IMG/VR virus record: IMGVR_UViG_3300028376_000048
Span: 1 to 20,950 of that record
Length of the DNA stretch: 20,950 nucleotides
Reading direction: 5' to 3' (one strand)
Origin: a virus
Shown: one piece after another, positions 1,455 to 20,950 of the stretch
Layout of the letters: every line of letters begins with the position of its first letter
Position numbering within the stretch: the stretch's first letter is position 1
Notes under the pieces: model-generated
The model's database searches: none
The model's input: the letters and a program-made list of their open reading frames with translations, nothing else
What the model was told of the DNA's origin: nothing
Made by a program: the position numbers and the translations under genes

Positions 1455-2063
1455 ATGATAAATGAAATGAACGGCGTATTTATACAAGGGCACATTAAGA
1501 TCCATGACCCGGAAACTGGCGAAGTTCTTGTTAATAAAAAGAATGCCATACATTACGAGAACATGAGCATAGCGTTAGCTGAAAGTCTAGCTAACGCAGG
1601 TACCGGCCCTATCTCGGAGATGAGTTTTGGCAACGGCGGCACAAGTATTGATCCAACAGGGATTATTACTTACCTAACACCAAACTCTACAGGCGCTAAT
1701 GCTAGTCTTTACAATCAAACCTACAGTAAGATTGTAGATGATCGTAATGCAAGTAATTTGGATCCAACAAGAAACAAAATTGAAACAAGACACGTTAGTG
1801 GTACAAACTATACTGACATTATTGTTACTACTTTGCTTGACTACGGTGAGCCTAACGGGCAAGATGCTTTTGATACAGCATCATCTACAAACTCTACTTT
1901 TGTTTTTGACGAGATCGGTCTACGAGCTGCTCCTGTTGCTGGGCAAGCTAGAGGAAGGCTGCTAACTCACGTAATATTCCACCCAGAACAAAAGTCACTT
2001 AACAGATTGATCCAAATTGATTATACTGTAAGAGTGCAAAGCCTTAGCGGAGGTAATAGCTGA
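1455..2063 (+). CDS. Phage structural protein, 202 aa, function unknown
   Basis: A 202-residue soluble protein with no signal peptide or membrane segment. The N-terminal part (about 8-30, 'GVFIQGHIKIHDPETGE') looks like a beta-hairpin, followed by a helical stretch with 'NMSIALAESLAN' and a Gly/Ser/Thr/Asn-rich middle typical of virion proteins. The ATG at 1455 has a modest GGAA (1444-1447) 7 nt upstream and a late promoter element just before that. The stop overlaps the next start by one base (TGATG), so it is probably translationally coupled to the tail-fibre gene. It sits between a large virion protein and three tail-fibre paralogs, so I infer a tail or baseplate component. No specific family recognised. 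Confidence 0.75.
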   Translation: MINEMNGVFIQGHIKIHDPETGEVLVNKKNAIHYENMSIALAESLANAGTGPISEMSFGNGGTSIDPTGIITYLTPNSTGANASLYNQTYSKIVDDRNASNLDPTRNKIETRHVSGTNYTDIIVTTLLDYGEPNGQDAFDTASSTNSTFVFDEIGLRAAPVAGQARGRLLTHVIFHPEQKSLNRLIQIDYTVRVQSLSGGNS

Positions 2064-4144
2064 TGGCATATTTTATACGGTTTAGTGATAACGTTAACAG
2101 AGACCCAATTATTGTTGAGGACAGGGATGTTAACGACGAAGTTACCAGTTTAAGTTTTCCTGGCAAAGGCGTTACAGAGTACGGCAAAATTATTGCCGAA
2201 AACATGTTGCACTTGCTTGAGAACTTTGCGTTTTCACAGCCTCCAAAAAACCCAAACGAAGGTCAAACATGGTACGACACTACTACGAATGTAGATCAGT
2301 TAAAGATCTATGACGGAACACGTTGGGTACCGGCAAGTGGTATATTTAAAGCCACTTCGTCTCCAGAAGTATCAGATGCATTAGCAGGCGACCTATGGGC
2401 CGACACTGATAACGAGCAGCTTTACTTAGCAACCGGGTCAGGTTGGGTGCTTATTGGTCCTGAATTTTCTGCAGGGTCGTCTACAGGACCGCGAGCAGGC
2501 TTACTTACGGGGACAGATAACCAGGATTACGCAGTTTTAATAATCGACGTAGATCAAGCGCCAGCAGTAATAATTTCAACTAATCAATTTATACCAAAGA
2601 CTACAATCGAAGGATTTCCTGAGATATTTCCAGGCATAAACCTTAGTACTGTAGGGGCGCTAAAGTATTACGGGGTCGCTGAGTCAGCCGCCGCACTAAG
2701 AATACAAAACAAAAACGTTCCAGCAAACAGATTTTTACGCAGTGACATTGATACAACTGCTAATGGAATCTTTAGTGTTAGAAACAACCAAGGTATTCAA
2801 GTAGGCGACAACAGTCAGTTTTCTTTGTTAACTGACGGTACTAGATCACTGATTAGAAACAATTTTGGTGGCGGCGGCATAGACCTGCAAGTAAAGCAAG
2901 GTGCCGAATTTAGAAGGGTAATGAGACTTAACAGTAACCCCGGCGAAACGCCAACAGTTGGCATCAATAATCTAAAACCACAAGAAACATTAGATATAAC
3001 AGGCACACTAAGAGTAAGCGATATTGTAACCCTAACTTCTACAGAAACATCAGACGGTCCAAACGACGGCGCACTTCAAGTAGCAGGCGGCGCCTGGATT
3101 GCAAAGAATTTACGTGTCGGAACTGATGCAACAGTTAACGGGGACGTAGATGTTAAAGGGAATATAGCCGCAAACGGAGTTGGCACCCAGACAATATCAG
3201 GTTTTGAAAGTATTTCGGCTAGTACGTTTATTGGTGATTTCCAAGGCAAACTAACAGGCTCGTTTATAGGTGTAGCGTCTGAAGCAATTAGATTAGAAAG
3301 TTCTTCTACATTTAGTATTGCAGGCGACGTAGTTGCACCTGGTATATCGTTTAACGGCGCAGGCAACTTAACCAAAGAATTTAATACTACTATTAGTAAT
3401 GGATTTATTATTAACAAGACTGCTTCTTCGTTTGCTGAAGCAGACGACGAAGTTCTTGTTAATAGGGGATCGAGTCTGTTTAGAATTAAACAAAGTGACT
3501 TTGTTGCAAGTGTTCCGACTACTCCGCCTGGTGCTATGATGCCGTATGGTGGTGCAACTGCACCTCCGGGCTGGTTGCTTTGTGACGGGTCTACAGTTGA
3601 ACGATCTACTTACCCTGAATTGTTTGACATTATTGGTCATCAATTTTTAGATACAGTTACGCTTCAAGACGACCTAGGGCTTAGTCCCTCATTATGGTTC
3701 GGTCTACCTGACTTCCGCGGAAGATTCCCGCTAGGTAACGATGCAATGGGCGGCAATAATGCTAACCGTGTATCTTCGTTGTCGGCCGAAATTGTAGGTA
3801 ACGTCGGAGGTAGTGAAACAACCGACGTTACGAAGAGTAATCTGCCAGCACACGAACATGACTTGGTATCGTCGGGTACTAATGCAAAGCAGTATTATGC
3901 AATCAGAGACGCAGCACTTGACTCGCTTAGCGATTCGCCAGAAGCCGAATCTCTTAATATAGAAACAGTTGGCGCAAGTTCTGCCACAGTATCAGGTATA
4001 CCGTCAAGTGGTTCAATCCAAGGCGGCGGCACAGACGGCCCTGGCAATTATAGAGATGTAGCAGGCGAAGACTTAGGCGCTGCTCTTAATACAATGAATC
4101 CATATACAACAGTTAATTATATTATTTGCACCGGGAACGTATAA
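2063..4144 (+). CDS. Tail fibre-like protein with C-terminal phage tail collar domain
   Basis: 693 residues. Residues 1-140 form the N-terminal domain shared with the next two genes: a 'Y-G-x-x-x-x-E-N-x-x-x-L-L-E-N-F-A' core, then two 'G-x-x-W-Y/A-D-T ... L-x-I/L-Y-x-G' repeats. The middle (about 220-430) has repeating beta motifs common in trimeric fibres. Residues 488-560 match the phage tail collar domain (Pfam Collar): 'GAMMPYGGATAPPGWLLCDG', 'YPELFDIIG', 'LPDFRGRFPLG'. 'NLPAHEHD' and the terminal 'YTTVNYIICTGNV' also fit collar proteins. A perfect GGAGGT (2049-2054) precedes the ATG at 2063. Collar domains occur in short-fibre and adhesin-type phage proteins, so host binding is likely but inferred. 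The stop overlaps the next ATG by one base (TAATG). Confidence 0.9.
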   Translation: MAYFIRFSDNVNRDPIIVEDRDVNDEVTSLSFPGKGVTEYGKIIAENMLHLLENFAFSQPPKNPNEGQTWYDTTTNVDQLKIYDGTRWVPASGIFKATSSPEVSDALAGDLWADTDNEQLYLATGSGWVLIGPEFSAGSSTGPRAGLLTGTDNQDYAVLIIDVDQAPAVIISTNQFIPKTTIEGFPEIFPGINLSTVGALKYYGVAESAAALRIQNKNVPANRFLRSDIDTTANGIFSVRNNQGIQVGDNSQFSLLTDGTRSLIRNNFGGGGIDLQVKQGAEFRRVMRLNSNPGETPTVGINNLKPQETLDITGTLRVSDIVTLTSTETSDGPNDGALQVAGGAWIAKNLRVGTDATVNGDVDVKGNIAANGVGTQTISGFESISASTFIGDFQGKLTGSFIGVASEAIRLESSSTFSIAGDVVAPGISFNGAGNLTKEFNTTISNGFIINKTASSFAEADDEVLVNRGSSLFRIKQSDFVASVPTTPPGAMMPYGGATAPPGWLLCDGSTVERSTYPELFDIIGHQFLDTVTLQDDLGLSPSLWFGLPDFRGRFPLGNDAMGGNNANRVSSLSAEIVGNVGGSETTDVTKSNLPAHEHDLVSSGTNAKQYYAIRDAALDSLSDSPEAESLNIETVGASSATVSGIPSSGSIQGGGTDGPGNYRDVAGEDLGAALNTMNPYTTVNYIICTGNV

Positions 4145-6048
4145 TGAGTTATATTTTAAATAGAACAGATGGAACTATTCTAGTAGAGTTAGTAGATGGA
4201 ATATTGGACACTGACACTACTGACATCGCATTAGTAGGACGAAATTTTACAGGCTATGGCGAGTTCATTAACGAAAACTTTGTCAAGATGCTCGAGAACT
4301 TTGCGAACTCAACCGTTCCTATTTCTCCTCTGAAAGGTCAATTGTGGTACGATACTAGTATAAACAAGTTGCAAATATACAACGGTGAAGAATTTCAGCC
4401 AGCAGCAGGTAGTTTTGTTGGCATACTTCCGCCGCAAGATCCTATTGCAGGTGACACATGGTACGATACATCGTCGAATCAGTTATACTTATTTGACGGC
4501 GAAGACTTTCAACTTGTAGGACCTCAGTTCACACTTCAACAAGGCAAAAGCGGAATATTTGTACGAACCGTGCAGGATCAGAATTTAAACCTAAGAACAG
4601 TGTTAGAGATTAGGCTCGGCGAAACATTGCAAGCGATAGTATCACGAAATCAGATTACGCCGGGCAATACTTTTGGAAATATAGTTCCTGAGTTAGTAAC
4701 AACTGGAAACCCTGATGGAATCATCTATCCAGGAATAAACGTTGTTAATCCTTACGAGTTTCAATATCGTGGCACAGCAGCATTAGCACAAGGCCTTATC
4801 ACAGGAACTAACCTTGCAACAGAATTTTCTACAGACAAAGTACTTCGAAATGATCAGAGAGGCACTGTTGCCGGAGACTTAACTTTGTTTGGAGATCCGC
4901 CAGAAGGAATAGTACCGGCATTACAATTAATAGACAGCAGTGTAAGACTATTTGTAGAAACTCAGTCTTCCAACCCTGACACCGATGATGTTATATTAGA
5001 AGTACAAGACCAAGGACGTAACACTCGTTTAAAAGTATTCGACCCGGGCGATACAGCAACAAGAGATGCTATTACTATTGATCCGATAGCCGGCAACCTT
5101 GGTATATTCAGCCGTGATCCGCAGTTTACATTAGATGTAACTGGCGACGCCAGAATTACAGGAGAGCTAACGGTAGAAGGCACAATTACTACTATTGAAT
5201 CAACTATCTTGCGTGTTGCAGACAAGAATATTGAGTTAGGTATTGTTCCAGACGAGTCTAGTCAACCTAGTGATACAACAGCAGACGGAGGCGGCATAAC
5301 ATTACTAGGCAACACTAACAAGACTCTTAATTGGGTTAATACTACTAGTAGCTGGACTTCTAGTGAAAATGTTGACTTAGCAACCGGTAAAGAATATAGA
5401 ATTAATAACACAAAGGTTATCGATGTTGACAGTCTTGGAACAACTATTACAAGTGCGCCGGGAGTAACGTCAGTTGGAACTCTAACAGACTTAACAGTAG
5501 ACGACATCTTCATAGACGGTTCGACAGTTACAGTATCGACAGGCCTGACTTTTAATGCCAACGGCAACATCAGTGTATCAAGCAGTAAAATTACTGATTT
5601 AGTACAACCAGAAGTGGATACCGATGCTGCAAATAAAGTGTACGTTGATGAACAGATTGATAATTCGTTGCTGGCGTTTTCGATAGATATTACAGCATGG
5701 TCTACAGCAGAAGGTGACGTAAGAACTAACATCCGCAAGTACTTAGATGCAGTGTTCGAACCTGATGCTGTTCTTAATGACGGTAAACAGGCTAAGATAA
5801 TTACGACACGAATTACTAGCACAGAGATCACTGGTATTAATGTTGAAGCACAGTCAACCGTGACTCCTGCAGACGTACTTATAAACTTATCAGGTGATAA
5901 AGTATCAGTAGTACAAGATATAAGTTTGCCTACTGATTTGTCAGTAGCGTATACCCCTAGTGTACTAAGAGAAGTTAGAACATTTGAAATTGTTAGCGGT
6001 GCGTGGCAGTATGTCTCAGGTCCTATTACAGTGCCTGGAATCTTATAA
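4144..6048 (+). CDS. Tail fibre-like structural protein
   Basis: 634 residues from the ATG at 4144, chosen because it overlaps the previous stop by one base and has GGGAA (4133-4137) 6 nt upstream; an in-frame TTG at 4126 is less likely. Residues 1-130 are the shared N-terminal domain ('GYGEFINENFVKMLENFAN', then paired 'WYDTS ... LYxFDGEDF' repeats). Residues about 330-440 carry a module I recognise from T4-like cyanophage fibres: 'VTGDARITGELTVEGTITT', then 'ADKNIELG', 'TADGGGITLLG', 'LNWVNTTSSWTSSENV'. The C-terminal 120 residues form a mixed domain I do not recognise; there is no collar or Peptidase_G2 motif. Probably a fibre or tail-tip component. Confidence 0.88.
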   Translation: MSYILNRTDGTILVELVDGILDTDTTDIALVGRNFTGYGEFINENFVKMLENFANSTVPISPLKGQLWYDTSINKLQIYNGEEFQPAAGSFVGILPPQDPIAGDTWYDTSSNQLYLFDGEDFQLVGPQFTLQQGKSGIFVRTVQDQNLNLRTVLEIRLGETLQAIVSRNQITPGNTFGNIVPELVTTGNPDGIIYPGINVVNPYEFQYRGTAALAQGLITGTNLATEFSTDKVLRNDQRGTVAGDLTLFGDPPEGIVPALQLIDSSVRLFVETQSSNPDTDDVILEVQDQGRNTRLKVFDPGDTATRDAITIDPIAGNLGIFSRDPQFTLDVTGDARITGELTVEGTITTIESTILRVADKNIELGIVPDESSQPSDTTADGGGITLLGNTNKTLNWVNTTSSWTSSENVDLATGKEYRINNTKVIDVDSLGTTITSAPGVTSVGTLTDLTVDDIFIDGSTVTVSTGLTFNANGNISVSSSKITDLVQPEVDTDAANKVYVDEQIDNSLLAFSIDITAWSTAEGDVRTNIRKYLDAVFEPDAVLNDGKQAKIITTRITSTEITGINVEAQSTVTPADVLINLSGDKVSVVQDISLPTDLSVAYTPSVLREVRTFEIVSGAWQYVSGPITVPGIL

Positions 6049-6105: not shown

Positions 6106-7575
6106 ATGGCTTATCAGATAGACAGATACAACAGGACGTTGTTAACTATAGTAGAAGACGGTACACTCGACCAAACAACCGATTTGCGGTTCATTGGCAA
6201 AAATTATGCTGGTTACGGTGAGATTCACAACGAAAACTTCCTGTTTCTACTAGAAAACTTTGCAAACGCAAATCCACCTCCGAAAGCACTAGAAGGCCAG
6301 GTATGGTTTGACAGCGCCGAAGGCAAACTAAAGGTCTATGACGGCGATGTTTGGAGAGCAACAGGCGGCAGTGAAGTTTCAGCAACAGCGCCAGTTGGGT
6401 TAAGCGTTGGCGATTTTTGGTGGGACAGCGGAAATGATCAGCTGTATGTATACAGTGGGTCGGAGTTTGTTCTAATTGGACCTCAGTCATTGGGTTCCGG
6501 ACTTACACAAATGGTTAGTCTCGAAGTAATTGATTCTGTTAATACCGCAAGGCCTGTTATTGTTTCGTATGTTGAGAATACTCCTATCTCTGTTTTTTCG
6601 CCGTCTGAATTTGAAATTAACAGTATCGAAGAACTTAGTGAGCAGGGGTTTACTAGAATTTCAAGAGGTATTACACTAAAAGACTCTACTGACGGTGTTA
6701 CAACCTCAGCATATCGCTTTAAAGGTACAGCAACTAACGCAGACAAGCTAAACAACAGATTGTCTAGCGAGTTTGTTACAGTTGATAACCCAGACTTTGT
6801 AAATCAGATTACAACTAATGTTGACGGCGTTCTAACAGCTGGTGCCTTTGGGTTTTCAGCCGAAACAGGCGGAACTGATCCGTTGCGCGGGGTTATTAGT
6901 AACACTAGTGGTCCTAATAACGAGATTAGATTTAAAGCGAACAACGTAAACGATGCAAGTATTCACAGTGTTTCTATTACATCGGCTGGTATTATGCCAG
7001 CAGCAACAAACACATTTGACCTAGGCACAAGTTCGTTGCGATTTAGATCAATCTATGCTGATAATTTCAGTGGCGGCCAAGCTACAAAGGCAGATACACT
7101 AAAGATTTCAGCAAGCACTTATCTAAGTGCGTCAGTTAGTGCAGTGCCAGATACTATTGTTGCACGTTCTTCAGGCAATGTTATCTTTGCAAGCGAGTTC
7201 AACGGTACAGCAACTAGCGCAAAATACGCTGACTTGGCAGAGAAGTATACTACAGATAAAGAATATCCAACAGGCACAATTATGTCAGTTGGCGGCGCTG
7301 AAGAAACAACTGCATCTGGACTAAATGACATTGTAATTGGCGTAGTGTCTGCAGAACCTGCGTTTTTGATGAACTCAGCTAGCGAAGGTCAAGCACTTGC
7401 ACTTAAAGGACGAGTTCCTGTTCGTGTAACCGGACGAGTTAAGAAAGGCCAGGCTATATACGTAGCCGGCGCAGGCATAGGTTCTGCAATGACTTCGTTG
7501 TCTCTCGTAGGTGTTGCATTGGAAGATAAAGTCAGTGACTCGGAAGGCTTAGTAGAGTGCGTTCTCAAAGTATAA
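6106..7575 (+). CDS. Tail fibre/spike-like protein with C-terminal Peptidase_G2-like domain
   Basis: 489 residues. Residues 1-130 are the third copy of the shared N-terminal domain ('GYGEIHNENFLFLLENFAN', then 'VWFDSAEGKLKVYDGDVW' and a WDSGNDQLYVYSG unit). The middle holds fibre-type beta repeats. Residues about 374-489 match the Peptidase_G2/intramolecular chaperone type of domain at the end of phage fibres and spikes: 'ADLAEKY', 'YPTGTIMSVGG', 'IVIGVVSAEPAFLMNS', 'ALKGRVPVRVTGRVKKGQ'. In characterised relatives this domain assists trimer folding and may be cleaved off by itself; cleavage here is not shown. AAGGGGA (6090-6096) and a late promoter element precede the ATG. Confidence 0.88.
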   Translation: MAYQIDRYNRTLLTIVEDGTLDQTTDLRFIGKNYAGYGEIHNENFLFLLENFANANPPPKALEGQVWFDSAEGKLKVYDGDVWRATGGSEVSATAPVGLSVGDFWWDSGNDQLYVYSGSEFVLIGPQSLGSGLTQMVSLEVIDSVNTARPVIVSYVENTPISVFSPSEFEINSIEELSEQGFTRISRGITLKDSTDGVTTSAYRFKGTATNADKLNNRLSSEFVTVDNPDFVNQITTNVDGVLTAGAFGFSAETGGTDPLRGVISNTSGPNNEIRFKANNVNDASIHSVSITSAGIMPAATNTFDLGTSSLRFRSIYADNFSGGQATKADTLKISASTYLSASVSAVPDTIVARSSGNVIFASEFNGTATSAKYADLAEKYTTDKEYPTGTIMSVGGAEETTASGLNDIVIGVVSAEPAFLMNSASEGQALALKGRVPVRVTGRVKKGQAIYVAGAGIGSAMTSLSLVGVALEDKVSDSEGLVECVLKV

Positions 7576-16806: not shown

Positions 16807-17874
16807 ATGGACATAGGCTTTATTGGTGTGGGCAAGCTCGGCATGCCCTGTGCAGAAGCAATTGCAGCAAAAGGGCATTCGGTTACAGGATATGATATTG
16901 CTAAGGTCTGTAGTGATACTGTAGATGTCGTAGACACTATAGGCGAATGTGTTGTAGGCAAGGATGTAGTATTTGTAGCAGTGCCTACCCCGCATGATCT
17001 CGAGTACGACGGTAATGCACCTTCGAGCCATCTACCACCTAAAGACTTTAGCTATACAATTGTCAAGGAAGTCTTGGAAGAAGCTAACAAGTACATGAAT
17101 AAAGATCAGCTTCTTGTGCTTGTATCAACTGTGCTTCCTGGTACTACGCGAGACCAATTTGTTGACTTAGTAGGTAATACTCGTTTTGTGTATAATCCTT
17201 ACCTTATTGCCATGGGCAGTGTAAGTTGGGACATGGTGAATCCAGAGATGATTATGATTGGTACAGAAGACGGCGAGGAAACAGGTGACGCAAAACAGCT
17301 GGTCGATTTTTATAAGACTGTAATGGACAACGATCCTCGCTACGTTGTTGGTACCTGGGACGAATGTGAATGTATCAAAGTGTTTTACAATACCTTTATC
17401 TCTACAAAGATTGGTCTTGTTAATATGATACAAGATGTTGCAGTAAAACAAGGCAACATCGATGTAGACGTAGTAACTCAAGCACTTGCGAATTCTAGTA
17501 TGCGTATTATGAGCCCACAGTATATGACAGCAGGCATGGGTGACGGTGGTGGGTGTGTGCTGCCTAATTTTCTTGTTAACGTAGATGACATTGAGATGCC
17601 TATAGAAGAACTGTACCAGCAATACAACGTCGACAAAGATCAAACTAGGGTAATTAAATCGTCAAATTATGCGTGTTCTTCAGCCGAGTATAAAAAGATA
17701 GACCAGGTTACTACTAGGCAATATAAAGGGAATATGTATAGATTTATAGTTGGTAGCAGTGAACTAATAACCACTAATGATCATTTAATACCAGTGTTGC
17801 GAGATAACACTAGACTAGTAGTAAGAGCAGAAGATATACTAGAAACAGACAAGTTGTATATGTTGGACAATTGA
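16807..17874 (+). CDS. UDP-glucose/GDP-mannose dehydrogenase N-terminal half fused to split-intein N part
   Basis: 355 residues: 249 of extein and 106 of intein. The extein has a Rossmann NAD site G7-x-G9-x-x-G12 ('GFIGVGKLG'), 'VFVAVPTPHD', 'VSTVLPGTT' and the catalytic K191/N195 region ('ECIKVFYNTF'), then stops at 'MGDGGG', just before the catalytic cysteine of the G-x-G-x-G-G-x-C-x-P-x-D motif. Residue 250 (C) starts the intein part. The frame ends at TGA 17872-17874. The enzyme family oxidises a nucleotide sugar twice to the uronic acid, here probably UDP-glucose to UDP-glucuronate, but GDP-mannose or an amino-sugar substrate is possible. AGGAG (16797-16801) precedes the ATG. Activity should need splicing with the product of 18724-19329. 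Confidence 0.92.
   Translation: MDIGFIGVGKLGMPCAEAIAAKGHSVTGYDIAKVCSDTVDVVDTIGECVVGKDVVFVAVPTPHDLEYDGNAPSSHLPPKDFSYTIVKEVLEEANKYMNKDQLLVLVSTVLPGTTRDQFVDLVGNTRFVYNPYLIAMGSVSWDMVNPEMIMIGTEDGEETGDAKQLVDFYKTVMDNDPRYVVGTWDECECIKVFYNTFISTKIGLVNMIQDVAVKQGNIDVDVVTQALANSSMRIMSPQYMTAGMGDGGGCVLPNFLVNVDDIEMPIEELYQQYNVDKDQTRVIKSSNYACSSAEYKKIDQVTTRQYKGNMYRFIVGSSELITTNDHLIPVLRDNTRLVVRAEDILETDKLYMLDN
17554..17871 (+). other. Split-intein N part (106 aa)
   Basis: It begins with Cys (codon 17554-17556), the first splicing nucleophile, in 'CVLPNFLVNVDD' (block A). Block B is 'LITTNDHLIPVL' with T74-x-x-H77. It ends at a natural stop codon at the usual place between the splicing halves, and no endonuclease domain follows in frame. 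The matching C part is at 18724-18858. Confidence 0.92.
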
Positions 17875-17904
17875 GGCATTTGTTATGTTCAAATATACTG
17901 TTTA

Positions 17905-17912
17905 GATAAATG
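17905..17912 (+). promoter_or_regulatory. Late-promoter-like GATAAATG before the endonuclease gene
   Basis: In the 43-nt gap between the N half and the endonuclease gene, GATAAATG differs from NATAAATA only at the last base. It ends 5 nt before the ATG at 17918, so a transcript from it would be nearly leaderless; no Shine-Dalgarno is visible. TATACT (17894-17899) could alternatively serve as a -10. Confidence 0.3.
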
Positions 17913-17917
17913 TTAGT

Positions 17918-18727
17918 ATGATTATAGAAGAATATGTTTTAAGAGTAAAGGAAAAATCTAAACAAAACAAGACTGGTTATCGAGAAGTTAATAAACTATA
18001 TCTAAAATTAACGTGCGACAACTGCAACAAGATACATTCTCGCTTAAAAAGCCATTATATTAAGATGATGAAAAACGAATGGTTTAACAAAGATTATTGT
18101 AATACTTGTTGGCGACCGATACTTTCTTCCAGGCCAGGTATAAAAGAAAAAGTGACGCAAGGAGTAAGAACTGCGTATGCTACTCGAGGTAACGAGATAA
18201 AAAAGAAGATATCTGAAAAACTAAAAGGTATGAATTTAGGCAATAACAACGGCATGAAACGCCCTGAGATTAGAGAAAAGGTTTCAAAAACTAGGTCTAA
18301 GCTCATGGAAGATAAGACATTTCGTTCTAAGTTTAAACAAGGTTCAATCGATGCCTGGGCAAGAGGATGTTATGATAATGCTAATACTTCTGGACGAGCT
18401 AACTGGCATACTTATATACATAGTAACGGAACTGCGTACAAAGTTCAAGGATGGTACGAGTTAAAATTTATCGAGTATCTCGATAATAATAATCTAAGAT
18501 TTGAATGTCACAAGGGAAAGATACCGTATGTAGCTGATGACGGACTAACTCACCATTATTTTCCTGATTTTTATGTGTACGAATGGCAATCTTACGTCGA
18601 CCCTAAAGCAACACACTGGTATAGAATACAAAAAAGAAAGTTTGAGCTGATGGCCGAGCAGCATCCGGACTTAAACTTACGCATACTCTTAGAAAGAGAT
18701 CTAAAAGCCTTAGGAATTAAGTTATGA
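17918..18727 (+). CDS. Free-standing homing endonuclease between the two halves of the split-intein gene
   Basis: 269 residues. Order of parts: a zinc finger of two CxxC pairs (C33, C36, C61, C64); a basic NUMOD3-like DNA-binding stretch (about 93-132, 'KKKISEKLKGMNLG', 'MKRPEIREKVSKTR'); and a C-terminal nuclease core with E181 ('GWYELKFIEYLDN'), P216-D217 ('YFPDFYVY') and D228-P-K230, a PD-(D/E)xK-like layout also reminiscent of Vsr-type enzymes. Such enzymes cut an intein-free allele and so spread the inserted DNA. It is in a different frame from both enzyme halves and overlaps the C half by 4 nt (ATGA). Base composition is visibly more AT-rich than its neighbours, consistent with separate origin. 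The active-site assignment is by eye. Confidence 0.82.
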   Translation: MIIEEYVLRVKEKSKQNKTGYREVNKLYLKLTCDNCNKIHSRLKSHYIKMMKNEWFNKDYCNTCWRPILSSRPGIKEKVTQGVRTAYATRGNEIKKKISEKLKGMNLGNNNGMKRPEIREKVSKTRSKLMEDKTFRSKFKQGSIDAWARGCYDNANTSGRANWHTYIHSNGTAYKVQGWYELKFIEYLDNNNLRFECHKGKIPYVADDGLTHHYFPDFYVYEWQSYVDPKATHWYRIQKRKFELMAEQHPDLNLRILLERDLKALGIKL

Positions 18728-18858
18728 AAAAAAGCATTGACAGAATAGAGTCTTTTTATTACCAAGGTCCGGTATACAACGTAGAAGTTGAGCCAAATCA
18801 TCCAACGAAAGACGACCAGTACTTCCTACAAAGTGATACTGGTATAGTAGTACACAAT
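18724..18858 (+). other. Split-intein C part (45 aa)
   Basis: Block F is 'PVYNVEVEPNHPTKDDQYFL' and block G is 'TGIVVHN', with penultimate His44 and terminal Asn45, followed by Cys at +1. These are the residues needed for asparagine cyclisation and transfer in class 1 inteins. Confidence 0.93.
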
Positions 18859-19329
18859 TGTCACCCGAGAGACAATATTGCCTTAAGTTATCTTGCTGAA
18901 AAGTTAGATTTAGGGTATGACTTGTTTTCCTCGGTGATGACAGCCAGAGAAGTACAAGCAAAAAATCTAGCAGAAGAACTAGTCAAGCATGCAGCGCTCA
19001 ATAACATGCCGATCTATATTCACGGCAAAGCATACAAGCCAAGAGTTCCTTATCTAGACGGTAGTTACAGTTTGCTAGTAGGGCACTATTGTGAGCAAGC
19101 AGGACATTCGCCCACATACATTGATCCGTACACCGGCGATGACTTCCAACCAACTGCTCCGGGGGTATTTTTAATGGCACACTCTGCAGAGGTTACATAC
19201 GAATACACAGGCATGACAGCTAGAGACGAATTGTATTGCTCGATCCCGCCTTTCAGTGTTATAATAGACCCATGGCGTAAGATGTCTTCTAGCGTAAGCA
19301 CAGTTATACATTATGGAAACACGAGGTAA
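18724..19329 (+). CDS. Split-intein C part fused to UDP-glucose/GDP-mannose dehydrogenase C-terminal half
   Basis: 201 residues: 45 of intein and 156 of extein. The extein begins with the catalytic Cys in 'CHPRDNIALSYLAEKL', continuing the dehydrogenase motif where the N half stops, followed by the helical central region ('SSVMTAREVQAKNLAEELV') and the C-terminal nucleotide-sugar domain with 'IYIHGKAYKPRVPYLDGS' (the usual G-x-A-Y/F-K-P region) and 'GVFLMAHS'. Joined to the first 249 residues it gives a 405-residue enzyme, close to the family's usual size. The ATG overlaps the endonuclease stop (ATGA), with AGGA (18712-18715) 8 nt upstream, so its translation is probably coupled to the endonuclease gene. 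Confidence 0.92.
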   Translation: MKKSIDRIESFYYQGPVYNVEVEPNHPTKDDQYFLQSDTGIVVHNCHPRDNIALSYLAEKLDLGYDLFSSVMTAREVQAKNLAEELVKHAALNNMPIYIHGKAYKPRVPYLDGSYSLLVGHYCEQAGHSPTYIDPYTGDDFQPTAPGVFLMAHSAEVTYEYTGMTARDELYCSIPPFSVIIDPWRKMSSSVSTVIHYGNTR

Positions 19330-20950
19330 ATGATTTACGATATTATCTACATAGGCGAAGATAGCAGCGAGTGGAGAATTCTTAAATCAAGATTTCCAAC
19401 AGCTAAAAAAGCCAGCTCGCTTGAAAAAGCACAAAAGATGACTTTTACAAAAATGTTTTGGGTAGTGACTCCTGACGTCATTGTGTGTGATGATTTTGAT
19501 TTTTCTTTTGAGCCTGACGAATGGAGTAAAGAGTATACTCACGTATTTAAGAACGGTGAGTACTATGACGGAATTATTCTGTGCAACAAACGTGCCAACA
19601 TTTCTAAGAAAGAGTTCGAGTACCGTTTTTATAGAAACAAGAAAGAAATCGACATTCAAGCAAGTATACCAAAACCCTATGAGATCTTTACCGTAGACTC
19701 GTACGAGGATTACTGCGAAGCGTATGAAAACAGTTCGACTAGTATGTTTTGGATGGTACCTAGTGATGTCGAAGTTGTAAGTGATTTTGACTTCTCATAT
19801 AGAGTTGCTAAATGGGACGAACAGTTTCATCTTGTATTCAAGAACGGAAATTATTACGACGGTGTAGTACTTTGTACCAAACAGTCCAAACTTTCTAAGA
19901 ACGAAATTGATTATAGATTTTATAGAAACAAGAAAGAAATCGACATTCAAGCAAGTATGCCAAAGCCCTATGATATTTTTTATGCTGACGGGTATGACGA
20001 CTATAAACGTGCACTTGAGAAGTCCAAGACGGATATGTTCTGGATAATCTGGCCGGGAATTAAAGTTAACGATGACTTCGACTTTAACTGGTATTTTTCG
20101 CATCACAATAGTTACGACAGAAAACAAAATCATGCATTTAAGAACGGCAAGTACTTCGACGGTATAGTACTTGCTAGCAAGCATGCACCAATAACCCGCC
20201 GAGAAGTTGAATTTCGTTTTGTAATAAACAGAAAAGAAGTTGACTACTGTGCAAGCATGCCGAAGCCGTATGATATTGTGTTCATAAGCTATAAGGAACC
20301 AAACGCAGAAAAGAATTACCATGCGTTGTTAGAAAGGTTTCCTCGAACAAAACGTGTACACAACGTTAAAGGCATACACAATGCCCATATCAAAGCAGCA
20401 GGGATTGTCGATACTGATATGTTCTGGGTAGTAGACGGCGACGCCGAGATTGAAAAAGATTTCAATTTTGATTACCAAGTAGCTCATTGGGATAAAGACT
20501 GTGTACACGTATGGCGCAGCAAAAATCCTGTAAATGACTTGACTTACGGCTACGGAGGTGTTAAACTATTACCCACAGAGCTGACAAAGAATGTTGATAT
20601 TAATTCAACAGACATGACAACCAGCATAAGTTACAAGTTTAAAGCAGTACCGGAGGTGTCAAATGTAACCGCGTTCGATACAGACCCGTTTTCAACATGG
20701 CGCAGTGCTTTTAGAGAGTGTGCCAAACTAGCAAGCAGCGTAATACGAGGACAGATAGATGACGAAACAAAAGAAAGGCTTGACAAATGGTGTAACACCG
20801 ATGAACGCCGTTCGAGTCAAGGGGCCTATGCAAGACGAGGCGCTATACACGGTCGTGAATTTGGGCTTTCTATTGAGTCTAGCGTTCAGTTGGGCAAGAT
20901 AAACGACTTCGAGTGGCTGTACGAAAGATTTTTAGAGGAGAACAAAACTA
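19330..20950 (+). CDS. Multi-unit glycosyltransferase-like repeat protein, 3'-truncated
   Basis: 540 residues visible, no stop before the window end. The ATG follows the previous stop directly and GAGG (19323-19326) is 3 nt upstream. It consists of four related units. Units 1-3 have the pattern 'M-F-W-x-x-(x3)-x-V ... D-F-D-F ... F-K-N-G-x-Y-Y/F-D-G ... Y/F-R-F ... A-S-M/I-P-K-P-Y', spaced 97-100 residues. At the DxD position they read TPD (47-49), PSD (144-146) and WPG (241-243). The fourth unit has an intact DGD (369-371), the 'Y-x-E-P-N-A-E-K-N-Y' N-terminal part, and a long C-terminal region matching the glycosyltransferase at 11196 ('FSTWRSAFREC', 'KWCNT'). Likely one active transferase unit with three degenerate ones, possibly for binding. 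Function inferred. Confidence 0.7.
   Translation, partial: MIYDIIYIGEDSSEWRILKSRFPTAKKASSLEKAQKMTFTKMFWVVTPDVIVCDDFDFSFEPDEWSKEYTHVFKNGEYYDGIILCNKRANISKKEFEYRFYRNKKEIDIQASIPKPYEIFTVDSYEDYCEAYENSSTSMFWMVPSDVEVVSDFDFSYRVAKWDEQFHLVFKNGNYYDGVVLCTKQSKLSKNEIDYRFYRNKKEIDIQASMPKPYDIFYADGYDDYKRALEKSKTDMFWIIWPGIKVNDDFDFNWYFSHHNSYDRKQNHAFKNGKYFDGIVLASKHAPITRREVEFRFVINRKEVDYCASMPKPYDIVFISYKEPNAEKNYHALLERFPRTKRVHNVKGIHNAHIKAAGIVDTDMFWVVDGDAEIEKDFNFDYQVAHWDKDCVHVWRSKNPVNDLTYGYGGVKLLPTELTKNVDINSTDMTTSISYKFKAVPEVSNVTAFDTDPFSTWRSAFRECAKLASSVIRGQIDDETKERLDKWCNTDERRSSQGAYARRGAIHGREFGLSIESSVQLGKINDFEWLYERFLEENKT
19627..19667 (+). repeat. 41-nt direct repeat, copy 1
   Basis: It encodes the 'FYRNKKEIDIQAS' end of unit 1 and is identical at DNA level to 19918-19958, 291 nt (97 codons) downstream. 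Similarity continues about 15 nt further with only two transitions. Confidence 0.85.
19918..19958 (+). repeat. 41-nt direct repeat, copy 2
   Basis: The identical partner of 19627-19667, encoding the same segment at the end of unit 2. The equivalent stretch of unit 3 (about 20218-20258) is clearly diverged, so units 1 and 2 are the youngest pair or have been homogenised. Confidence 0.85.

Follow-up and report, generated by a model that had tools for sequence, protein, structure and literature searches.

A dehydrogenase gene fractured by split-intein halves around a nuclease gene in a viral genome: a probable mobile cassette

How does a gene for a dehydrogenase come to lie in two pieces on a viral genome with a nuclease gene between them, and could such an arrangement both yield the enzyme and move from phage to phage? 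The question is raised by a locus at positions 16807-19329 of the IMG/VR virus record IMGVR_UViG_3300028376_000048, a stretch of 20,950 nucleotides (nt) which we call the window; all parts of the locus lie on the (+) strand. The enzyme belongs to the UDP-glucose 6-dehydrogenase (UGD) family, and an earlier reading made from the letters of the window (the sequence-only reading) had proposed that its gene is fractured by a split intein. Our answer, to which we give a probability of roughly 0.87 from sequence comparisons, is that the locus is a mobile fractured-gene cassette, in which UGD would be rejoined by protein trans-splicing while the nuclease would drive homing. The answer draws on the anatomy of the locus, its splicing residues, the HINT fold predicted for a fused relative, alleles that lack the cassette, a footprint resembling co-conversion, and the joint transfer of intein and nuclease. 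The last three (empty sibling alleles, tract and co-transfer) are the most informative and go beyond the sequence-only reading.

The split gene, its intein and its nuclease

The features of the locus, with the evidence that identifies each, are these:

16807..17553 (+): N-extein, UGD residues 1-249, ending GMGDGGG before the presumed catalytic Cys (PHROG and Pfam matches, uninterrupted relatives)
17554..17874 (+): intein N fragment, 106 residues plus stop, with Cys1 and block B TNDH (Pfam and TIGR matches, alignment)
17918..18727 (+): free-standing nuclease gene, 269 residues, with a four-Cys N part and a putative PD-(D/E)XK domain (profile, alignment, model)
18724..18858 (+): intein C fragment, 45 residues, ending HN, its ATG overlapping the nuclease stop (TIGR01443, alignment)
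18859..19329 (+): C-extein, UGD from CHPRD onward, 156 residues plus stop (PHROG match, alignment)
18859..18873 (+): co-conversion-like footprint, 15 nt with 6 synonymous differences from the empty alleles (comparison with L008 and L010; L numbers denote related loci)

Two open reading frames (ORFs) share the enzyme between them. The first, 16807-17874(+), encodes 355 residues, comprising the UGD N part (residues 1-249; phrog_9148, E-value 7e-67; PF03721, 7e-16; PF00984, 1e-10) and an intein part (residues 250-355) that begins with Cys and carries TNDH as block B. The second, 18724-19329(+), encodes 201 residues, of which the first 45 are intein and end in HN; CHPRD and the UGD C part follow (phrog_9148, 4e-19). 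The break point, GDGGG^CHPRD, falls directly before the Cys of the motif G-x-G-G-x-C-x-P-[KR]-D, where uninterrupted relatives run straight from the GDGGG region into CHPRD, and this Cys, position Cys+1 with respect to the intein, we take to be the catalytic Cys of UGD. Joined, the exteins amount to 249 + 156 = 405 residues, the length that the sequence-only reading had given for the product. The nuclease ORF, 17918-18727(+), is in a different frame from the UGD halves, and its stop codon shares the letters ATGA with the start codon of the C half; this overlap recurs in 11 of the 13 nuclease-bearing representatives compared (L038 and L040 deviate), which suggests translational coupling of nuclease and C half. 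The locus thus has the arrangement of a fractured gene, with two host-gene ORFs bearing intein halves and a free-standing endonuclease gene between. At the sequence level, the split of UGD by intein halves of 106 and 45 residues, which the sequence-only reading had laid out half by half, is confirmed by the domain matches, the catalytic residues, dozens of related contigs and the fold predicted for the fused relative L044.

All residues of a class 1 split intein are present in the window: C250, TNDH, HN, and then C46 of the C-terminal ORF. In an N-half alignment of representatives laid under L044, Cys1 and the block B Thr are kept in 16/16 and the block B His in 15/16, and a separate C-half alignment keeps the H-N-C junction in 17/17. 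Alignments mixing both halves were dropped because N tails were placed on C parts. The C fragment passes TIGR01443, the NCBIfam model of the intein C-terminus (20.0 bits, cut-off 15.6). L044 itself is a natural single-ORF relative at the same site, 576 residues long with an intein of 154, for which a HINT fold is predicted (mean predicted local distance difference test, pLDDT, 82; predicted template modelling score, pTM, 0.72); the 50 PDB matches listed for this model are inteins, intein-like domains or hedgehog HINT domains, KlbA, Aes123 PolB1, NrdJ-1 and gp41-1 among them. In five divergent pairs the intein halves have ratios of nonsynonymous to synonymous substitution (dN/dS) of 0.04-0.15 or, where dS was saturated, ratios of the corresponding proportions of differences (pN/pS) of 0.07-0.27, and either pN/pS or dN/dS is likewise low on the extein halves in the pairs compared.

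The nuclease combines a zinc-finger-like N part with four Cys (C33, C36, C61, C64) and a set of catalytic-type residues (E181, P216-D217, D228-x-K230), each invariant in 12/12 sequences. A profile search of the PDB returned entries of T7 endonuclease I (best E-value 4e-7) and no others, and the sequence falls just short of Phage_endo_I, PF05367 (28.8 bits, curated cut-off 29.1). In its model (pLDDT 83, pTM 0.42), residues 159-268, a range that leaves the four-Cys part outside, align with TnsA (Z 9.0), Vsr (6.2) and I-Bth0305I (5.8) in a VIA re-examination of the Foldseek matches, where Z below 8 may reflect merely a common structural arrangement. T7 endonuclease I is absent from both structural match lists for the model; it is a swapped dimer, which may hide a structural match. 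On its motifs we read the nuclease as a PD-(D/E)XK enzyme nearest in sequence to T7 endonuclease I, and the call of an endonuclease gene between the halves by the sequence-only reading is supported. Three of the four divergent pairs compared give the nuclease a dN/dS of 0.08-0.09.

Empty alleles, relatives and the moving unit

The clearest view of movement comes from two loci, L008 and L010, in which the same phage background has an uninterrupted UGD. To the left of the insertion the window differs from these empty alleles at 2 positions in 5,000 nt (-4089 and -1). To the right there are 8 mismatches in 2,092 nt, of which 6 lie in the first 15 nt and the next at +1938. All six border differences are synonymous, and the 15 nt of the window equal those of the cassette-bearing loci L002-L006. 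A second record of the same phage background with the cassette, L001, has a longer donor-like tract, through +27. Presence or absence of a cassette at one site between near-identical genomes, together with a flanking tract resembling co-conversion, is a trait of homing elements. That these unbroken copies of UGD are otherwise nearly identical to the window suggests a recent arrival of the cassette as a whole.

Within the cassette the resemblance is reversed. Against L004 the window has nt identities of 78.3 and 69.9% in the exteins, 100% in the intein N fragment (IntN), 99.8% in the nuclease and 100% in the intein C fragment (IntC), with 87.0% and a 5-nt gap in the 46-nt spacer; the proportion of synonymous differences is 0.656 in the N-extein and 0 in IntN, nuclease and IntC. 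The three coding parts of the cassette are 99.5-100% identical in L003 and L004 despite exteins that are only 78/70% alike. One IMG metagenome id, 3300028372, is attached to both the donor-type L004 and the empty L008. Elsewhere in the lineage, L002 and L004 have exteins that are 99% alike, yet they diverge within the 40 nt that follow the insertion, and L005 differs from L004 on the left of the insertion; from these differing borders, several separate conversion events may have taken place in L002-L006.

The same pattern holds over longer distances. Across the 11 lineages with all parts, Mantel tests with 20,000 permutations gave r=0.88 (p 5e-5) between intein and nuclease distances, with a partial r=0.86; when L004 is left out, the values are 0.83 for intein and nuclease and 0.30 for intein and extein. 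L025 and L026 have UGDs that are 88/84% alike, with inteins at 56% and nucleases at 49%; in L012 and L039 the UGDs are 53/47% alike, the inteins 82% and the nucleases 74%. Near-identical cassette parts amid divergent exteins, together with these distance correlations, indicate that IntN, nuclease and IntC probably home together as one unit, with the nuclease as the presumptive driver of transfer.

The set of relatives comprises 51 IMG/VR loci, many of them copies of one phage and making up about 15 lineages by eye. In 40 of the 51, spanning many lineages and assemblies, UGD is visibly split at the same residue, which makes the split neither chance nor a lone assembly break. L006 has the intein C part, its contig beginning inside it. 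One locus (L044) is fused in a single ORF, three (L049-L051) have a longer contiguous insert at UGD, five (L007-L010, L018) are uninterrupted, and one (L028) ends before the site; LAGLIDADG_3 was matched in L049 (E-value 8e-8) and L050 (1e-8), the two covered by that scan. Among the best 80 N-half loci listed, 4 were split and 76 uninterrupted. A search with the fused L044 intein gave three further loci, all on contigs already in the set. The isolated phages searched by tblastn with the C half gave 6 records in which every match starts at residue 45 or 46 and no intein C part was present. Marine virus AG-345-E15, Synechococcus phage Bellamy and Pelagibacter phage HTVC008M have the nearest uninterrupted UGDs, and no phage matched when near-identical sequence was sought with the window as a whole.

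A further search, which listed relatives of the nuclease, added one split contig, L273, for a total of 41 visibly split contigs, of which 29 have the PD-(D/E)XK nuclease, 6 another nuclease and 6 none. The other nuclease is one gene, 100% identical in all six of L029-L034, with a PHROG match to 'homing endonuclease' (6e-12), none in Pfam, and a GIY-YIG-like appearance by eye in L032 (YIYKWT...WYIGSR). The contigs that are split and have no nuclease (L019, L027, L045-L048) represent three lineages. L019 and L027 retain the last nuclease codons, LGIKL-stop, with ATGA before the C half, and this remnant suggests that the nuclease was lost once the split was in place; a clear nuclease remnant was looked for in L045 and none was seen. 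Among the matches listed, nucleases of at least 41% identity all sit at a split UGD except that of L285 (1-1477), where a 44% relative (residues 90-262) comes directly after an intact UGD that has no intein; the KGRAV at the C-terminus of this nuclease looks like a copy of the end of the neighboring UGD. Weaker relatives among the matches listed (L286-L333, 23-36%) have no UGD or intein parts.

Two other peculiarities of UGD loci may be recorded. In L015 (1994-4126; also in L016) UGD has, in addition to the split intein, a contiguous intein-like insert of 355 residues directly after KVFYN, beginning CYSDD and ending WQGN before TFIS, so that one gene is interrupted at two different motifs; within this insert Pfam matched neither an intein nor an endonuclease. 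In L384 (about 3700-4520) a UGD C part has Trp in place of the catalytic Cys (SGSWHPRDN) with unrelated sequence upstream, either a broken gene or an assembly join.

Alternatives, mechanism and origin

Several observations weigh against the mobile, trans-spliced cassette. The N fragment stays below cut-off with both PF14890, the intein splicing domain (E-value 9e-5), and TIGR01445 (0.003). The HINT model is that of the fused relative L044 and not of the window pair, and its residues 136-154 have pLDDT below 50. L043 (30-344) has Gln at the block B His (TSDQ) in a split intein that is otherwise normal. For the nuclease, Foldseek on the model returned nothing below E 0.001 (best 0.08), and in the pair L035/L038, with saturated dS, pN/pS is 0.39. 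At base -1 the window has GGG where both L004 and the empty alleles have GGC, which makes L004 a cousin of the donor rather than the donor itself. A weak correlation exists between intein and extein distances, too (Mantel r=0.39, p 0.002). To these may be added that the sequences would also be compatible with ordinary recombination proceeding without a nuclease.

This last point belongs to an unlikely account in which the split intein trans-splices and the cassette is spread by ordinary homologous recombination, the nuclease being a hitch-hiker or dead. The three nuclease-free lineages keep their split intein, so a split intein persists without the nuclease; however, exchange at the right border covers about 15 nt (up to +27 in L001) and is followed by 1.9 kb of native sequence, which local break repair fits better than crossover. 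Also against this account stand the joint travel of intein and nuclease, the invariance of E181, D217, D228 and K230, and the dN/dS given above. An assembly artefact joining a strain with intact UGD to a cassette-bearing strain is very unlikely, even though the window does equal the empty strain outside the cassette and the L004 type inside it, and even though L005 shares 41 nt with the empty strain at the left border, enough for a false join with short k-mers. At the right border no more than 9 nt (+15 to +23) are common to cassette-bearing records and the empty strain, too short for an assembly join, and at the left L002-L004 share only 8 nt with it. In L001, moreover, this cassette recurs in this phage background, but its right border is another one.

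The rejoining of the halves can be doubted in two further ways. UGD sits in two separate ORFs, as it would if these were pseudogene fragments of a broken, decaying gene, never rejoined; this is improbable in view of the low pN/pS or dN/dS on extein and intein halves, of splicing residues to which L043 is the sole exception, and of a design visible in 40 of the 51 loci, with L044 having its intein fused in one ORF. Introns often interrupt phage genes, and a split self-splicing intron could in principle rejoin the gene as RNA, but Rfam at the gathering threshold gave no match anywhere in the window, the sequence at each border is coding and has intein blocks, and L044 is predicted to fold as HINT; the idea is scarcely credible.

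For the mobile cassette that we favor, the following mechanism can be envisioned, in which splicing, cleavage, the cutting site and the route through co-infection are what we infer. Two separate precursors, UGD-N with IntN and IntC with UGD-C, would associate through their intein parts into one HINT domain. Class 1 trans-splicing could then proceed by an acyl shift at Cys1, transfer to Cys+1 and cyclization of the last Asn, assisted by the block B His and the penultimate His, to give a UGD of 405 residues with the catalytic Cys at the junction. The nuclease encoded between the halves would cut intein-free UGD near the insertion site, and in a co-infected cell the break would be repaired on the cassette-bearing phage genome, so that IntN, nuclease and IntC would all be copied at once, along with a little of the flanking sequence.

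How such a cassette arose is less certain, and we lean only slightly toward a history, its order of stages inferred, in which one nuclease lineage, specific to UGD, creates split inteins, spreads them and in the end departs from them. The nuclease would have begun as a free-standing gene beside an intact UGD (as in L285) and then entered an intein at the UGD active site, breaking it in two; the resulting three-ORF unit would home between phages (the window, its empty sibling, the 15-nt converted tract), its nuclease could be swapped for another type (L029-L034), and deletion of the nuclease would leave the split in place, as the last nuclease codons in L019 and L027 may record. If true, this would be a direct natural history of the origin and persistence of split inteins, and the related loci (nuclease beside the gene, in the split, swapped or lost, intein fused) would be stages that bear on that origin. 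Fractured genes have reportedly been described by their anatomy, with movement and the moving unit hard to see; here one phage population has both occupied and empty alleles, and what sets them apart is the cassette plus a short converted tract. Two defined DNA sites and a single enzyme of 269 residues would thus be enough to put homing by a split intein and its free-standing nuclease to the test. These are also naturally split inteins whose Cys+1 would be the enzyme's active-site Cys, so that splicing would switch the enzyme on.

Some neighboring genes of the window deserve mention. The ORF after UGD (19330-20949) has about three tandem repeats of some 95 residues (KPYxI...FW...FDF, by eye), and its counterpart in L004 is shorter, at 345 residues. 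The genes at 2063-4144 (with tail-fibre PHROG matches), 4126-6048 and 6106-7575 have a similar N-terminal part by eye (YG..NEN..LLENFA) and are likely a duplication series.

Comparison with known systems

The sequence-only reading had proposed looking for insertions at the same UGD site, and these prove to be contiguous in cellular loci and split in the 40 IMG/VR loci. A codon-level search of genome_contigs gave 101 stretches, 80 of which were fetched as loci (L156-L235); in 58 of the 80 a regular expression found G-x-G-G-x^C...HN^C-x-P-K-D in one ORF, and 50 of those 58 inteins are 449-490 residues long, contiguous and placed before Cys-x-Pro-Lys-Asp. The hosts include haloarchaea, Omnitrophota, Actinomycetota, Myxococcota, Heimdallarchaeota and others. 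Among the same loci, inteins at the catalytic Cys are also seen in several bacteria of the candidate phyla radiation and in DPANN archaea. Cellular UGD inteins share the insertion point of the phage split but are contiguous; on these loci the catalytic-Cys position is a widely used intein site, and neither the UGD host gene nor the site is new.

An intein allele named 'udp' is likewise described by PMC4071816 in the UDP-glucose 6-dehydrogenase of haloarchaea and other organisms, an enzyme of the same family as the host here; its site is compared here through the cellular loci, haloarchaeal and bacterial ones among them. The suggestion that the host gene might be new to inteins therefore fell, while the split form in UGD was not found in print: no paper on it turned up in the literature searched, which is weak evidence of absence since subscription papers and preprints lay mostly outside it, and the accessible parts of PMC3322345 and PMC8528832 place no intein in UGD.

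In a splicing-domain tree of 42 rows (19 from phages, 23 drawn from the 58 cellular inteins), the phage split inteins join the fused L044 in a single clade (100/99) that sits on a long branch, apart from the cellular inteins and from those of phages L049 and L050; phage and cellular UGD inteins did not come out as a single clade. L044 groups with the split L040 and L043 at 94/88, and with a weak root inside the phage clade L044 may be either ancestral or re-fused.

Among other inteins, an N fragment of about 100 residues is typical of split ones according to the accessible part of PMC12707363. By structure, gp41-1 (6qaz), NrdJ-1 (8ubs) and Aes123 PolB1 (9hth) share the HINT fold with the L044 model (TM-scores by target 0.75, 0.71 and 0.63) at 20-22% identity in the structural alignment. 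All three sit in host genes other than UGD, and Aes123 PolB1 is without Cys, unlike the phage UGD intein. For the nuclease, I-Bth0305I, Vsr and T7 endonuclease I have a PD-(D/E)XK-like catalytic fold in common with the enzyme of the window, for which TnsA stands above both I-Bth0305I and Vsr in fold score.

A close parallel is with the fractured genes that Dassa et al. 2009 are said to have described, in which two host ORFs carry split-intein halves with a free-standing endonuclease gene between; the likeness reportedly extends to their occurrence in environmental phage-like DNA. Their endonucleases reportedly belong to an EDxHD/Vsr-like family, whereas the nuclease here, with its invariant PD...D-x-K motif, is PD-(D/E)XK (GIY-YIG-like by eye in L029-L034) and not clearly EDxHD/Vsr-like. 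Their host genes are likewise reported as those for helicase, IMP dehydrogenase and ribonucleotide reductase; the present system has UGD as its host and comes with empty alleles and a tract resembling co-conversion.

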